From Parabacteroides sp. PH5-46 (GTDB taxonomy: Bacteria; Bacteroidota; Bacteroidia; Bacteroidales; Tannerellaceae): DNA of 51,485 nucleotides. Below, one piece after another: positions 37,706 through 43,985 of the stretch (the stretch's first letter is position 1; the number at the start of each line of letters is the position of its first letter). The notes below the pieces were generated by a model that saw only the letters and a list, made by a program, of their open reading frames with translations, ran no database searches and was not told the origin of the DNA. The translations under genes and the position numbers were made by a program. Location of the stretch: NCBI RefSeq assembly GCF_029892785.1, contig NZ_JARXXA010000023.1, positions 1-51,485 on the forward strand, written 5' to 3'.

Positions 37706-40700
37706 TCATTTGTACTCCTTCCAGCTCTTAATCTGTAAATCACTTGTACTTAATGTACAAAAAGCCGTTATAAAAGCGTCTGCCAAACGTGCATTTGTCA
37801 ATAATGGGATATTAAGGTCTATCGATGCCCGGCGGATTTTATATCCGTTATCCAACTCTCCGGCTGAAAGGTCGCGCGGTATATTGACTACCATATCGAT
37901 CTTTTTCTCGCGAAGCATGTTTAAAGCCTGAGGCTGTCCTTCTTCACTCGGCCAATATACATGTGTACTTTCAATTCCGTTCTCTTTCAGGAAGCGATGT
38001 GTACCGCCTGTAGCATACAGGTTATACCCCTTCTTGGATAAAAGGCGGGCGGCGTCCAGCATATCCACCTTCTGCTTGGAAGTACCTGTCGAGAGCAGGA
38101 TATTCTTCTTCGGAATTTGATATCCTACGGAAAGCATACTCTTCAATACGGCTTCCGAGGTATCATCGGCAATGCAGCCTACTTCGCCTGTGGAAGCCAT
38201 GTCTACGCCCAATACTGGGTCTGCCTTTTGCAAGCGGCTGAACGAGAACTGCGAGGCCTTTATCCCCACATAGTCCAGGTCGAAGGCATTCTTCGTCAGT
38301 TTCTGAACAGGTAAGCCCAACATCACACGGGTTGCCAGTTCTATAAAGTTAATTTTTAACACCTTGCTAACAAACGGGAAGCTTCGCGAAGCTCTCAGAT
38401 TACATTCTATCACCTTGATTTCATTGCCCTTTGCCAGGTATTGGATATTGAATGGGCCTGAGATATTCAGCTCTTTGGCGATCTGCTTGCTGATTCGTTT
38501 GATACGCCGAACGGTTTCTACATACAGCTTCTGCGCCGGGAATTGGATCGTTGCATCCCCACTGTGTACCCCTGCGAACTCGATATGTTCGCTGATGGCA
38601 TACATGACGATTTCGCCCTTCTCGGCTACGGCATCCACCTCTACTTCCTTGGCGTGTTCTATGAACTGGCTCACTACCACCGGGTGTTTCTTGCTCACAT
38701 TGGCAGCCAGTTTCAGGAAGCGCTCCAGCTCTTCCTGGTTCGAACAGACGTTCATGGCTGCTCCACTCAGCACGTAGCTGGGGCGCACCAGGACAGGAAA
38801 GCCCACCTCTTCTACAAAGGTATTGATGTCTTCCATCCGACTCAGCTCTTTCCAGCGCGGCTGGTCTACACCGATACGGTCGAGCATGGCGGAGAATTTA
38901 TGTCTGTCTTCCGCATTATCAATGCTTTGGGCAGATGTTCCCAAGATGTTTACATGTTGTTCGTCCAGGCGTATGGCCAGGTTGTTCGGGATTTGTCCAC
39001 CCGTTGAAACTATCATTCCATGCGGGTTTTCAAGTTCATGGATGTCCATTACCCGTTCAAAGGTAAGTTCGTCAAAGTACAGCCGATCGCACATATCATA
39101 GTCTGTCGATACAGTCTCCGGGTTGTAGTTTATCATCACCGAGCGCCAGCCTTCCTTCCGGATTGTATTGAGTGCCTGTACGCCACACCAGTCGAACTCT
39201 ACCGAGCTTCCGATACGATAGGCTCCCGAGCCCAGTACAATGATTGAACGCCTGTCACCCAGGTAATGTACATCGCTCTCTATCCCATTATATGTAAGGT
39301 ACAGGTAATTCGTTTGTGCGGGATATTCGGCAGCCAGAGTATCAATCTGCTTCACTACCGGAAGTATCTTTCTGAATTTCCGTTCCTGGCGTACCAGCAG
39401 GCTGGCCTTTTCCGCATCGGTCATCCCTTCTTTAAAAATAGCCCGAGCAATCTGGAAGTCTGAAAATCCCTGGCTTTTAGCAGTACGGAAGAGCGAGTCC
39501 GGGATATCCGCAATCTTGCCATAGCATTCCAACTCGTCGGCCGTGCGGATGATATTATGTAGTTTCTGTAAAAACCACTTGTCTATCTTTGTCAGCTCAT
39601 GTATCTGATCTATCGTATATCCACCAGAGCGAAAGGCTTTGCTAATTACAAACACCCGGCTGTCGGTAGGCTCTTTCAAAGCCTTGTCGATATCCGGCAA
39701 TACCAGTTCTTTATTCTCTACAAAGCCATGCATTCCCTGCCCTATCATGCGAAGCCCTTTCTGGATGGCCTCTTCAAAGGTACGTCCGATAGCCATCACC
39801 TCGCCTACGGACTTCATGCTGGAGCCTAGCTCACGGTCTACTCCCTGGAACTTCCCTAAATCCCAACGCGGGATCTTGCAGACTACATAGTCTAAGGCCG
39901 GTTCAAAGAAAGCGCTGGTTGTTTTAGTTACCGAGTTTTTCAGGTCGAATAAGCCATAACCCAGTCCCAACTTAGCTGCCACAAAGGCCAGCGGATAACC
40001 GGTTGCTTTCGAGGCCAGAGCAGACGAGCGGCTCAGGCGGGCATTCACCTCAATCACCCTGTAATCTTCACTTTCCGGGTCGAGGGCATATTGCACATTA
40101 CACTCTCCTACGATGCCGATGTGGCGGATAATGCGGATGGCTAATTCCCTCAGTTTGTGATATTCTGAATTGGTAAGCGTCTGAGACGGAGCAATTACGA
40201 TACTCTCGCCGGTATGGATGCCCAGCGGGTCGAAGTTCTCCATATTACAGACGGTGATACAGTTGTCGAAGCGGTCGCGCACCACCTCGTATTCCACTTC
40301 TTTCCAGCCTTTCAGGCTCTTTTCTACCAGCACTTGCGGAGAGAACGAGAAGGCTTTTTCCGCCAGCGCATTCAGCTCTTCTTCATTATCGCAGAAGCCG
40401 GAGCCCAGTCCTCCCAAGGCATAAGCCGCCCGGATAATCACCGGATAGCCCAGTTCGGCAGCCGCCCGGCGGGCATCTTCTATGGTATTAACCGCTTCAC
40501 TCTTAATAGTCTTAACGTTTATCTCATCCAGCTTGCGGACAAACAACTCGCGGTCTTCCGTATCCATGATAGCCTGAACCGGCGTACCCAGAACGCGGAC
40601 ATTGTATTTTTCCAACACCCCGCTTTGATACAAGGCTACCCCGCAGTTAAGCGCCGTTTGCCCTCCGAAAGCCAGCAGTATACCTTCCGGACGCTCTTTT

Positions 40701-42070
40701 TCGATTACTTTCTCTACAAAAAAAGGAGTAACGGGTAGAAAATAAACAGTGTCCGCAACTCCTTCCGACGTCTGAACCGTGGCGATATTGGGGTTTATCA
40801 ACACCGTTTCTATCCCCTCTTCTTTAATCGCCTTAAGGGCTTGCGAACCGGAATAGTCAAACTCCCCGGCTTCCCCGATCTTAAGAGCTCCGGAACCGAG
40901 AACAAGTACTTTTCCACCCCGAAACTCACCCCCCAACCCCCTAAAGGGGGGGCAAAGAGCGACCTCATTAGCCCCCCCTTTAGGGGGCTGGGGGGGCATT
41001 GCTTCGACAAACATGTCGAAGATAAACTCCGTGTCGGTTGGTCCGCTGCTTGCTTCGGGGTGGAATTGGGAGGAGAAGAAGGGTTTGGTTTTGTGTCTGA
41101 TTCCCTCGTTCGTGCCATCGTTCATGTTAACGAAAAGCGGCTCCCAGTCTGCGCCCAGGGTATTATCGTCTACAGCGTATCCATGATTCTGCGAAGTAAT
41201 GAAACATTTGTTGGTTCCTACCATCCTTACAGGTTGGTTGTGACTCCGGTGTCCGTACTTCAGCTTATAGATAGAAGCACCTCCGGCCTTGCCCAATAGC
41301 TGGTTCCCCATACAGATCCCGCAAATTGGTTTGTCTCCGGAAAGCGCTTTGCGGATATTCTGCACGGCAGCATCACAAGTATCGGGGTCTCCCGGTCCGT
41401 TACTGATAAACAGACCATCATATTCTAGTTGGTTAAAATCATAATCCCAGGGGACACGTATCACCGTAACACCCCGTTTCAACAGACAGCGAATGATGTT
41501 ATGTTTAACGCCACAGTCTACCAGAACAACTTTCTTTTTACCTTCTCCGGCCCCATAGGTAATGACCTCTTTTGTAGATACTATTGCTACCTGATTGATG
41601 GCATTCGGGTCACAAAAATCTATCTCGTCCGGTTTATCTAATACGATCTTTCCTTTCATGCTTCCTTTTTCGCGAAGCAATTTGGTCAGCGCACGGGTAT
41701 CTATGCCGTATATGCCGGGAATTTGCTCTTTTTTCAGCCATTGACTTAAGCTTTCTACGGCATTCCAGTGGCTGTATTCCTTGCTATAATCGCTTACGAT
41801 AATGGCATCCGCATAAATACGGTCGCTCTCCATAAAGGTAGACAATCCATTTTCTTCATAGGTTTGGGAAGGTACGCCATAATTACCTATCAACGGATAG
41901 GTTAGCACCATGAGCTGGCCAGCATAGGAAGGGTCTGTCAAACTTTCCGGATAACCCGTCATAGCCGTATTGAACACTACTTCACCGGCAACAGCCTTCT
42001 CGTATCCAAAGGAGATACCGTGAAAAACGCTGCCGTCGTCTAAAATCAAAGTCGCTGTTCTGTCTGTCAT
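37706..42070 (-). CDS. carAB: Fused CarA-CarB carbamoyl-phosphate synthase
   Basis: One continuous 1454-residue frame holds both subunits. Residues 1-357 are CarA: N-terminal domain, then class I glutaminase with Cys253 (GICMGNQ) and His337/Glu339 (FHPEA). Residues 387-1454 are CarB: two ATP-grasp halves, starting VLVLGSGALKIGEAGEFDYS and IIVLGSGAYRIGSSVEFDW, and a C-terminal MGS-like regulatory domain (about 1315-1440). Residues 358-386 are a Pro/Gly-rich linker encoded by a repeat element (40929-40995). There is no stop codon and no plausible start codon at the junction, so only the fusion can be made. Bacterial subunits are normally separate; eukaryotic enzymes are fused. A PurF-like gene lies 4 bases upstream in the same operon. 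It supplies carbamoyl phosphate for pyrimidines and arginine. Confidence 0.95.
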   Translation of the reverse strand: MTDRTATLILDDGSVFHGISFGYEKAVAGEVVFNTAMTGYPESLTDPSYAGQLMVLTYPLIGNYGVPSQTYEENGLSTFMESDRIYADAIIVSDYSKEYSHWNAVESLSQWLKKEQIPGIYGIDTRALTKLLREKGSMKGKIVLDKPDEIDFCDPNAINQVAIVSTKEVITYGAGEGKKKVVLVDCGVKHNIIRCLLKRGVTVIRVPWDYDFNQLEYDGLFISNGPGDPDTCDAAVQNIRKALSGDKPICGICMGNQLLGKAGGASIYKLKYGHRSHNQPVRMVGTNKCFITSQNHGYAVDDNTLGADWEPLFVNMNDGTNEGIRHKTKPFFSSQFHPEASSGPTDTEFIFDMFVEAMPPQPPKGGANEVALCPPFRGLGGEFRGGKVLVLGSGALKIGEAGEFDYSGSQALKAIKEEGIETVLINPNIATVQTSEGVADTVYFLPVTPFFVEKVIEKERPEGILLAFGGQTALNCGVALYQSGVLEKYNVRVLGTPVQAIMDTEDRELFVRKLDEINVKTIKSEAVNTIEDARRAAAELGYPVIIRAAYALGGLGSGFCDNEEELNALAEKAFSFSPQVLVEKSLKGWKEVEYEVVRDRFDNCITVCNMENFDPLGIHTGESIVIAPSQTLTNSEYHKLRELAIRIIRHIGIVGECNVQYALDPESEDYRVIEVNARLSRSSALASKATGYPLAFVAAKLGLGYGLFDLKNSVTKTTSAFFEPALDYVVCKIPRWDLGKFQGVDRELGSSMKSVGEVMAIGRTFEEAIQKGLRMIGQGMHGFVENKELVLPDIDKALKEPTDSRVFVISKAFRSGGYTIDQIHELTKIDKWFLQKLHNIIRTADELECYGKIADIPDSLFRTAKSQGFSDFQIARAIFKEGMTDAEKASLLVRQERKFRKILPVVKQIDTLAAEYPAQTNYLYLTYNGIESDVHYLGDRRSIIVLGSGAYRIGSSVEFDWCGVQALNTIRKEGWRSVMINYNPETVSTDYDMCDRLYFDELTFERVMDIHELENPHGMIVSTGGQIPNNLAIRLDEQHVNILGTSAQSIDNAEDRHKFSAMLDRIGVDQPRWKELSRMEDINTFVEEVGFPVLVRPSYVLSGAAMNVCSNQEELERFLKLAANVSKKHPVVVSQFIEHAKEVEVDAVAEKGEIVMYAISEHIEFAGVHSGDATIQFPAQKLYVETVRRIKRISKQIAKELNISGPFNIQYLAKGNEIKVIECNLRASRSFPFVSKVLKINFIELATRVMLGLPVQKLTKNAFDLDYVGIKASQFSFSRLQKADPVLGVDMASTGEVGCIADDTSEAVLKSMLSVGYQIPKKNILLSTGTSKQKVDMLDAARLLSKKGYNLYATGGTHRFLKENGIESTHVYWPSEEGQPQALNMLREKKIDMVVNIPRDLSAGELDNGYKIRRASIDLNIPLLTNARLADAFITAFCTLSTSDLQIKSWKEYK
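40929..40995. repeat. In-frame C/G-rich inverted-repeat element forming the CarA-CarB linker
   Basis: Two 25-base arms (40929-40953 and 40971-40995) are inverted repeats with a single mismatch. Each arm is built as C-run, TTTA or its complement, G-run, dinucleotide, G-run. A 17-base spacer separates them. The element is translated on the minus strand as ProProGlnProProLysGlyGly, a middle part, then CysProProPheArgGlyLeuGlyGly. It interrupts the point where CarA should stop and CarB should start. A smaller relative lies at 25669-25692, and another C/G hairpin at 22994-23009. Confidence 0.9.
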
Positions 42071-42074
42071 ATAT

Positions 42075-43985
42075 TCAATTTTTCATTATAAAAACGCCAT
42101 TCTTATGTAAGTATTCATCTTCCATAAAATGAATAAATGCCTTATTTACCATACGTACACCACCGGGCGTAGGATAATCTCCTGAGAAATACCAGTCGCC
42201 GGGATGGTTCGGGCAGGCATCGTGCAGGCCTTCCAGGGTTTGGTACACAATCTCTACTTTTGCATTCGTCCCTTCCGGAGTCAACAGGTCTACCATCTTG
42301 GCCGATATCTCTTCATCCGTAAACGGAGCATATATCTCCTTCACATAGTTAACCATCACTTCGCCGGGCTCCGAGTCTTGCGTTTTGGCCTTTTTGTACA
42401 CCTCATGAATGAGCCCCACCTGCTCTCTGTCTTCCAGCAAGGCAATAGCAGCCCTGAAGGCTATAAATTCATTCATGCGTGACATGTCAATTCCGTAATA
42501 ATCAGGGTATCGTACCTGCGGCGACGAAGAAACAATTATTATCTTACGAGGCCCCAATCGGTCTAATATACCAATAATACTCTGCTTCAAGGTGGTACCC
42601 CTCACGATACTGTCGTCTATCACCACCAGGTTGTCTACCCCCCGCTTGATGCTGCCGTATGTAACATCGTACACGTGAGCCGCCAGATCGTCCCGGGTAT
42701 TCCCTTCGGCAATAAACGTACGCAGCTTAATATCTTTGATGGCTACCTTCTCCGCACGTACACGCATAGACAAAATCTTTTCCAGCTCGCGCTCGTCCAT
42801 CCATGAGTTGCGTCCGGCAATCCATTCTTTCTTTTTCGTATTCAGGTAGTCATTCAACCCTTCCTGCAGACCGAAATAAGCCACTTCCGCCGTATTAGGT
42901 ATGAATGAGAAAACCGTATTGTTCGTATCGTAGTCTACCGACTGAAGAATCGGGTGAACCAGGTTCTTTCCCAACTGCTTCCGCTCACGATAGATATCCA
43001 CATCACTCCCACGCGAGAAGTAGATCCGTTCAAACGAGCAGGCACTCAGCCTTTCCGGCTCCACAATCTGCGACGTCCTTAGCTGTCCGTTCTTCCCGAT
43101 AATAAGAGCCTCTCCCCTGTTTAATTCCGTAACCTGATCAGCTCTTACATTCATGGCTGTTTGTATAACAGGCCGTTCCGAAGCCAGGACAACTATCTCG
43201 TCATCGGCATAATAAAAAGCCGGACGAATGCCCCAGGGGTCGCGCACGCTGAAAGACTCTCCGCTACCGGTCAGCCCGCAAATCACAAAGCCTCCATCCC
43301 AGGCCGGGACACATCTTTTCAACACATTTGCCATATCCACCTGATCTTCTATGGCATGCGTAATATCCATGCCTTTCAGCCCTTCCTTCTCACTCTGTTG
43401 GTAAAGGCGTTCTACCTCGCGATCCAGGCGGTGGCCCATTTGCTCCAACATTATATATGTATCGGAATACAAGCGGGGATGCTGCCCGATAGATGTTATT
43501 TCGTGAAACACATCCTGCACATTCGTCAGATTAAAATTGCCACAAAGCGCCAGGTTCTTGGCCCGCCAGTTATTGCGCCGAAGAAACGGGTGGATAAAAG
43601 AAATACCGGACTTGCCGGTAGTACTATAACGCAAATGACCCATATAAAGCTCTCCTGCGAATGGTAAATGTTCTTTAGCGAAACAGGGGTCTTTTAGTTT
43701 GTCTTTGGGAATATCTTTGTAGTGATCGTGAACGGAAGAAAAAATCTCGGTAATGGCACCGGTTCCGATAGCTCGTTCTCTGAACATATATTCTTCTCCG
43801 GCACTTGCTTCTAATTTAACGCATGCTAATCCGGCACCTTCCTGCCCGCGATTATGCTGCTTTTCCATTAACAGATAGAGTTTGTTCAAACCATACATCC
43901 AATTACCATACTTCTGATGATAATACTCCAAAGGTTTTAGTAATCGAACCATGGCGACTCCGCACTCATGCTTTAGCTCTTCCAT
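42075..43985 (-). CDS. PurF-like class II glutamine amidotransferase-phosphoribosyltransferase
   Basis: The 636 residues hold an N-terminal Ntn glutaminase (Cys8 in KHECGVAMV after a seven-residue propeptide; QHNRGQEGAG; MGHLRYSTTGKSG) and a phosphoribosyltransferase domain with the PRPP loop VVIDDSIVRGTT (Asp457/Asp458). It is about 130 residues longer than ordinary PurF (about 505), with an insert before the PRPP loop (including WIAGRNSWMDERELEKIL) and a longer C-terminus. It may be a second PurF or a related enzyme. It lies 4 bases upstream of carAB, so nitrogen transfer from glutamine is the common theme of the operon. Confidence 0.88.
   Translation of the reverse strand: MEELKHECGVAMVRLLKPLEYYHQKYGNWMYGLNKLYLLMEKQHNRGQEGAGLACVKLEASAGEEYMFRERAIGTGAITEIFSSVHDHYKDIPKDKLKDPCFAKEHLPFAGELYMGHLRYSTTGKSGISFIHPFLRRNNWRAKNLALCGNFNLTNVQDVFHEITSIGQHPRLYSDTYIMLEQMGHRLDREVERLYQQSEKEGLKGMDITHAIEDQVDMANVLKRCVPAWDGGFVICGLTGSGESFSVRDPWGIRPAFYYADDEIVVLASERPVIQTAMNVRADQVTELNRGEALIIGKNGQLRTSQIVEPERLSACSFERIYFSRGSDVDIYRERKQLGKNLVHPILQSVDYDTNNTVFSFIPNTAEVAYFGLQEGLNDYLNTKKKEWIAGRNSWMDERELEKILSMRVRAEKVAIKDIKLRTFIAEGNTRDDLAAHVYDVTYGSIKRGVDNLVVIDDSIVRGTTLKQSIIGILDRLGPRKIIIVSSSPQVRYPDYYGIDMSRMNEFIAFRAAIALLEDREQVGLIHEVYKKAKTQDSEPGEVMVNYVKEIYAPFTDEEISAKMVDLLTPEGTNAKVEIVYQTLEGLHDACPNHPGDWYFSGDYPTPGGVRMVNKAFIHFMEDEYLHKNGVFIMKN

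Follow-up and report, generated by a model that had tools for sequence, protein, structure and literature searches.

A dispersed palindromic element translated within the linker of a fused CarA-CarB carbamoyl phosphate synthetase in Bacteroidales

The linker of a fused carbamoyl phosphate synthetase (CPSase) is a copy of a dispersed palindrome that is probably tolerated inside proteins, and the fusion of carA and carB probably is a separate event that recurred in Bacteroidales. The fused gene is located in a stretch of 51,485 nucleotides (the window), which represents contig C23 of the 4.4-Mb genome G000. The fusion and the element can be read directly from the nucleotide sequences, and so can further in-frame copies and decayed forms of the element as well as fusions free of it; its effect would be near-neutral. 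We read the palindromes, which are REPIN-shaped, as tolerated inside proteins and as repeatedly colonising linkers and loops.

On the minus strand, a single frame of 1454 codons (37706..42070) comprises CarA and CarB and is free of stops at the junction, in agreement with the earlier note. The small-subunit model TIGR01368 matches residues 6-358 with 459.5 bits (cut-off 307.35) and the large-subunit model TIGR01369 residues 387-1436 with 1558.6 bits (cut-off 1027). Since both models pass their curated cut-offs, the enzyme is classified by them as a glutamine-dependent CPSase (CarAB). The CarA part (residues 1-357; 41000..42070, minus strand) contains the Pfam domains CPSase_sm_chain (8-142) and GATase (182-356) and retains the glutaminase Cys context GICMGNQ, and the CarB part (residues 387-1454; 37706..40912, minus strand) was delimited by Pfam and TIGR01369. 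The linker obtained by junction reading (residues 358-386; 40913..40999, minus strand) has the sequence MPPQPPKGGANEVALCPPFRGLGGEFRGG, exactly as described before, with the refinement that the element itself covers residues ~359-381. The absence of a usable start codon at the junction, which had also been claimed, was not found, since an in-frame ATG adjoining the element (M358; 40997..40999, minus strand) and a TTG within it remain. Translation may therefore also start internally and give a CarB preceded by as many as 29 leader residues.

The best PDB sequence match of the window protein was human CPS1 (1646 bits), and E. coli CarB and CarA matched with 813 and 260 bits, respectively. A covalent CarA-CarB unit with a fixed 1:1 ratio is the expected outcome of the fusion; we infer that the protein is made and working, and the fusion could conceivably influence ammonia channelling. 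An AlphaFold2 model of residues 150-760, for which 42 of the 44 fused rows at hand were aligned as input, was poor overall (pLDDT 62, pTM 0.40), with pLDDT values below 50 in the linker (~362-383) and likewise in much of the CarB part. Due to this low confidence, the model of the joint was set aside as evidence. Upstream of carA, a 636-aa amidophosphoribosyltransferase-like protein is encoded (42075-43985, minus strand), which with 131 bits stays far under the purF cut-off of 350; a relative of it is present upstream of carA in 19 of 20 fetched stretches, the remaining one having just 273 bases. G000 also carries a second carB (G000:C12:105921-109118, L194; 66% identical) that has no adjoining carA, and a second carA was not detected at E 1e-50 among the 9 of 23 candidates scored. 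Furthermore, 12 nt in the CarB-side flank of the element (40912-40923) form a perfect inverted repeat with the FHPE codons of CarA (41054-41065), perhaps a template-switch scar or chance.

The palindromic element in the linker has a length of 67 bp (40929..40995). By inverted-repeat search, arm 1 was located at 40929..40956 on the 3′ side of the gene and arm 2 at 40968..40995 on its 5′ side, each with 28 nt and 93% complementary to the other. Under strict scoring the arms have 25 nt with one mismatch, which coincides with the first description of the element and was matched by none of 200 shuffles. The folding energy of the transcript is -73 kcal/mol (z -7.9), and again none of 200 shuffles was as good. 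An Rfam search over 40000-42500 gave four hits, all of them sub-threshold (best: Sso133, 28 bits at a gathering threshold of 44). As the element contains runs of 7 C and 7 G and is a multicopy sequence, an assembly or base-calling artefact in this C/G homopolymer-rich repeat was considered; it is extremely improbable in view of the unique flanks of the 67-bp element, the frame open over 1454 codons, and the fusions and the decayed copy found in independent genomes. It is also very unlikely that the hairpin is functional, in that ribosomes pause or slip at the C7/G7 runs and free CarA is made besides CarAB: the very stable fold, the homopolymer runs and the ATG at M358 would suit such a role, but just 7 of 45 fused linkers contain a strong palindrome and that of the related genome G010 is decayed, so that nothing was seen conserving the hairpin.

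The REP-like origin of the linker suggested in the earlier note was confirmed insofar as the element is a genuine copy of a palindrome dispersed over 17 places in G000. The core CCCCCTAAAGGGGG occurs in 20 copies in this genome (9 forward, 11 reverse) compared to none for the reversed-pattern control, and a genome search with a 24-nt arm and up to three mismatches, a search of the kind proposed earlier, resulted in 28 matches, which were grouped into these 17 places. The copies are ~64-77 bp long and by inspection have the ends A(C)6...(G)6T. Nine of the places, with C4:224082 as an ambiguous one among them, are inside an ORF that continues on both sides; the genes affected encode CarAB, PnuC, EamA, YgiQ (with a single arm), a TolC-like protein, an ABC ATPase, an ABC permease, a GH67 enzyme and, ambiguously, the start of a lipoprotein. 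When at least 40 codons on either side of the insert were demanded, 6 of the 17 places were counted as interior. The insert is spanned by models above their cut-offs in PnuC (PF04973, 2-195), the ABC permease (PF12698, 21-374) and YgiQ (TIGR03904, 9-577), and by models below their cut-offs in EamA (TIGR00950, 36-296) and the TolC-like protein (TIGR01844, 24-292). In the GH67 enzyme and the ABC ATPase it is N-terminal to the Pfam domain matched.

The frames of the palindromes stay open through both arms, and the core-to-core length is divisible by 3 in 6 of 7 in-frame two-arm copies and in 2 of 4 other measured copies (C4 excluded). Because of these two properties and of the Pro/Gly-rich loops encoded by the palindrome, a copy that enters a linker or a loop at the surface would add 20-30 residues without destroying the protein.

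In the sister species G016, 6 of 14 places are interior, namely in MetH, YgiQ, TolC and three HlyD-like genes. The TIGR02082 match of MetH (4-1066) runs through the insert; two of the HlyD-like genes were scanned, and the third is identical to one of these at 407 of 435 positions. Judged by eye, the YgiQ and TolC sites are occupied in both G000 and G016. The same holds for a loop of EamA, a region of varying length in 13 homologue loci, where the element is present in G016 as a decayed copy that none of 1000 shuffles equalled. Since the EamA loops of the two genomes differ and that of G016 resembles other copies of its own genome, this may be explained by repeated insertion or conversion at favoured sites just as well as by inheritance. 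Four other genomes bearing the element were examined for a subset of their copies, selected in part for paired arms; there, 3 of 53 places were interior compared to 12 of 31 in G000 and G016 together (Fisher p 2.4e-4), which argues against tolerance as a general property of the palindrome.

Several further copies are of interest in their own right. An efflux operon in G000 (G000:C16:60268-64342; L273, L280, L262, L264) encoding TolC-like, HlyD-like, ABC ATPase and ABC permease proteins has the palindrome inside or at the end of all four genes, three times in frame and once as one arm at the HlyD-like end; three of these copies have similar loops, as if spread locally. One loop sequence is common to the G016 copies L212, L222, L285 and L308 but different from those of the G000 copies, a hint of recent copying or conversion in G016. 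In G032, where carA and carB are split, a window-type palindrome is located directly upstream of carA (G032:C94:8583-8690). The element is presumably mobile. A link to RAYT was rejected, as the element is absent within ~1.5 kb of all three Y1_Tnp genes in G000.

For the distribution of the fusion, 18 species of the genus were sampled, 16 of which were readable (G007 gave no match, G014 a fragment). Fourteen of the 16 are fused and two, G013 and G006, are split; in these, carA ends with LS-stop and carB follows in a different frame. The fusion is thus not peculiar to the window genome. It may have been created by insertion of the element, as proposed in the earlier note, but 12 of the 14 fused linkers in the genus have no recognisable copy. 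A search of the family gave matches in 110 of 123 genomes, and by junction reading eight genomes outside the genus are fused (G022, G025, G026, G029, G030, G035, G371, G372). Eight other candidates with long open frames (G285, G345, G335, G348, G351, G384, G230, G228) were rejected due to stops at the junction. Of 295 genomes drawn evenly from the order, at least 181 matched and at least 8 rows including the own genome had a full-length open joint, with G025 as ninth.

Of 149 readable junctions, nearly all of them from Bacteroidales, 45 are fused, with linkers of 8 to 70 residues (median 27). This set is enriched for fusions by the use of a fused protein as query, and its two collections possibly share members (L051 is identical to L169). 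On a tree of 147 rows, two having been dropped as too short, the fusion state changes at least 10 times, so that a single ancestral fusion for all Bacteroidales was rejected for this fusion-enriched sample. Outside the order, all 14 Bacteroidota loci that were read are split, and among the loci read the fusion was seen within Bacteroidales only. This fits the suggested convergence with the eukaryotic form; on the other hand, the protein itself is eukaryote-like (CPS1). The linker start 'TGKL' was rejected as derived from the element, as the split CarA proteins of G032, G414 and G416 have it too; it may be a helix cap.

The occurrence of palindromes at the junction also argues that the fusion does not need the element. 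Strong inverted repeats (score of at least 14) were found in 7 of 45 fused linkers compared to 5 of the 104 spacers in split pairs (Fisher p 0.045), leaving 38 fused linkers that contain none, and fusions of this kind are present in several other Bacteroidales groups. The strong linker palindromes comprise the window type CCCCCTAAAGGGGG, the type AATTGACAATTGACAAT with a near variant (G029, G025, G372), GAGAATGGAGAATGG in G022 and two CTC/CCC-rich types (L093, L098). Dispersal was observed for the window type and, within few loci, for the AATTGAC type; for the G022 and L098 types, no copy beyond the own linker was detected among 386 fetched loci. Conversely, the spacer of the split pair L151 holds a window-type palindrome. 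The sister rows G025 and G371 (L142, L149) both have fused linkers, with a palindrome in the former and none in the latter, so that palindromes can come or go without altering the fused state.

The relation of element and fusion in the genus itself was analysed by comparing the junctions. Relative to the split pair, a stretch of ~41 nt with the stop and the start has been exchanged at the window junction and not simply interrupted. The genome G010 (90% identical) has a linker of the same length (87 nt) beginning at the same codon, and both of its arms resemble a decayed element. The two linkers share 44 of 87 nt, which none of 20000 codon shuffles equalled, and this is suggestive of homologous inserts. 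A pairing of G000 and G010 as sisters was rejected with CarAB (p 0.0135) and with AlaS, RpoB and the PurF-like protein together (p 0.0055); if the inserts go back to one event, it is therefore older than the five-member window clade. These findings bear on the alternative that the element made the fusion in an ancestor, with loss of the carA stop and the carB start, and that most descendants now carry a decayed linker. We consider this rather unlikely, although it has points in its favour: the palindrome of G010 at the same codon and within the same 87 nt, together with the rejected pairing, would place the element probably in the common ancestor. The CarAB tree unites the fused members in a single clade (support 82/83, and 100/99 for the rest), of which G000 with its intact palindrome is the first branch, and G010 with the decayed one branches low; the split G013 and G006 branch beside fused genus members, in FastTree beside the window clade. 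Against it, RpoB alone does not reject the pairing of G000 and G010 (p 0.357), and the whole G010 insert is nearer to another G000 copy (C5; score 75) than to the window copy (69), even if its loop is barely closest to the latter (18 vs. 17; equalled by 19 of 2000 shuffles). The species tree divides the genus into groups, of which the window clade alone shows the element; the main groups as well as G013 and G006 can be placed in more than one way (p 0.129 for all fused members as one clade, p 0.062 for the split pair with the window clade). Moreover, the linkers of G016, G015 and G012 by eye resemble those of the other fused clade (GQL..), suggesting an older palindrome-free linker. The earlier note had named relatives that are all fused without the repeat as the finding that would speak against its proposal; this applies in part, with G013 and G006 split and G010 carrying a decayed palindrome at the same place.

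Palindromes were also detected in other parts of the two subunits. In 44 of 149 scanned loci, 69 insertions of at least 10 residues away from the joint were found, eight of which hold an inverted repeat (score 11 to 28): in CarA at residues ~71 (L093), 147 (L150), 148 (L142) and 286 (L116), and in CarB at ~792 (L096), 848 (L181) and 849 (L171, L180). Short repeats of score 8 near 145-149 in L101 and L181 were equalled by none of 100 shuffles, and in the other 59 of the 69 insertions no inverted repeat stood out. L093 contains a near-identical translated repeat twice, at CarA 71 and in the linker, and L142 (G025) has two palindromes in a single fused chain. The assumption that palindromes sit at domain borders is only partly true: judged by the Pfam domains of the window protein, three of the eight sit close to a border (147, 148, 792) and five inside domains (71, 286, 848, 849, 849). 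The palindromes near residue 849 in CarB of L171 (G353), L180 (G031) and L181 (G346) are in frame and AATTGACAAT-like; the genus of these loci (g15) is, from its place in the tree, probably Parabacteroides.

In the reading we prefer, the palindrome, which consists of two inverted REP-like arms and a variable loop in a REPIN-like shape, would be tolerated in frame inside proteins of this clade, and the fusion of carA and carB would be a separate, recurrent event in Bacteroidales. The linker would be weakly constrained, and palindromes of several sequences would come and go in it and elsewhere in CarA/CarB, turning into ordinary linker as they decay. A small, mobile-looking repeat thus seems to have been turned into protein sequence without breaking its host genes, in conserved enzymes of another phylum than that of Rickettsia and repeatedly at the same sites of sister species. 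Tentatively, several unrelated palindrome families of Bacteroidales might even serve as protein-coding mobile linkers that fuse neighbours such as carA and carB and decay to linker. If so, palindromes inserted in linkers and loops of essential enzymes would continually supply Bacteroidales with linkers and gene fusions. Species with and without each insert allow a direct test whether mobile repeats build protein linkers, and the split and fused CPSases provide a natural series for testing the effect of fusion on ammonia channelling.

Among known systems, the eukaryotic CPSases (CPS1, CAD) also have CarA-like and CarB-like parts in one chain, but the window protein is bacterial and has GICMGNQ where CPS1 has GISTGN. 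Among the matches listed in our literature search, no report was found of a bacterial CarA-CarB fusion, of the element or of in-gene palindromes in Bacteroidota; the sole string match, in the portion available, was an E. coli paper (PMC4549865). The excerpts of four papers on bacterial repeats describe neither in-gene copies in Bacteroidota nor two genes fused by a palindrome (PMC2229807, PMC10969869, PMC3116915, PMC3733652).

In shape, the element is closest to REPINs, which in the part of the source at hand are hairpin-forming multicopy sequences of two inverted REP-like arms and a spacer, associated with RAYT genes and extragenic, with 14 of 1067 16-mers overlapping genes (PMC3116915). It shares the inverted arm pair with spacer and the multicopy state, but is interior to genes at 6 of 17 places in G000 and 6 of 14 in G016, and none of the three Y1_Tnp genes of G000 is flanked by it within ~1.5 kb. 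Intragenic REP dimers are described for R. conorii and Opitutus terrae, in the latter with GTAG/CGTC-tagged REPs, in excerpts that name Bacteroidetes once, for CGTC repeats (PMC3733652). The dimers of O. terrae are similar to our element in that they lie within ORFs and encode 20-30 residues (PMC3733652, in part), but the ends of the element by inspection have neither a GTAG nor a CGTC tag. Coding palindromes also occur in nematomorph mitochondria, according to an extract of PMC6649704. Correia and ERIC elements (MITEs) are characterised, in the section available, as small repeats of the non-autonomous kind with frames fused to ORFs of the host (PMC2229807). The element is like them in its in-frame fusions, but differs in sequence and phylum.

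The best-known translated palindromes of conserved genes are those of Rickettsia; in other bacteria, cases are scattered. The Rickettsia palindromic elements (RPE) were reportedly described by Ogata et al. in 2000 and 2002. According to the available parts of the sources, RPEs are dispersed palindromes that are in frame and translated in unrelated conserved genes and apparently tolerated (PMC2229807, PMC10969869), and nearly half of the copies are located in genes (PMC10969869). They are ~105-150 bp long with sequences of their own, some being CGTC-tagged, and for RPE-4 and RPE-6 this tag is reported at one end (PMC3733652, in part); by inspection, this end tag is absent from the copies of our element. 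The element likewise occupies many unrelated loci (17 places in G000) and is in frame within conserved genes, but it is ~64-77 bp long, C/G-rich and from Bacteroidota, with one of its copies linking the two subunits of an enzyme. By analogy, it appears to work like an RPE but would not be filed as one, and the RPEs are closest to it in behaviour.
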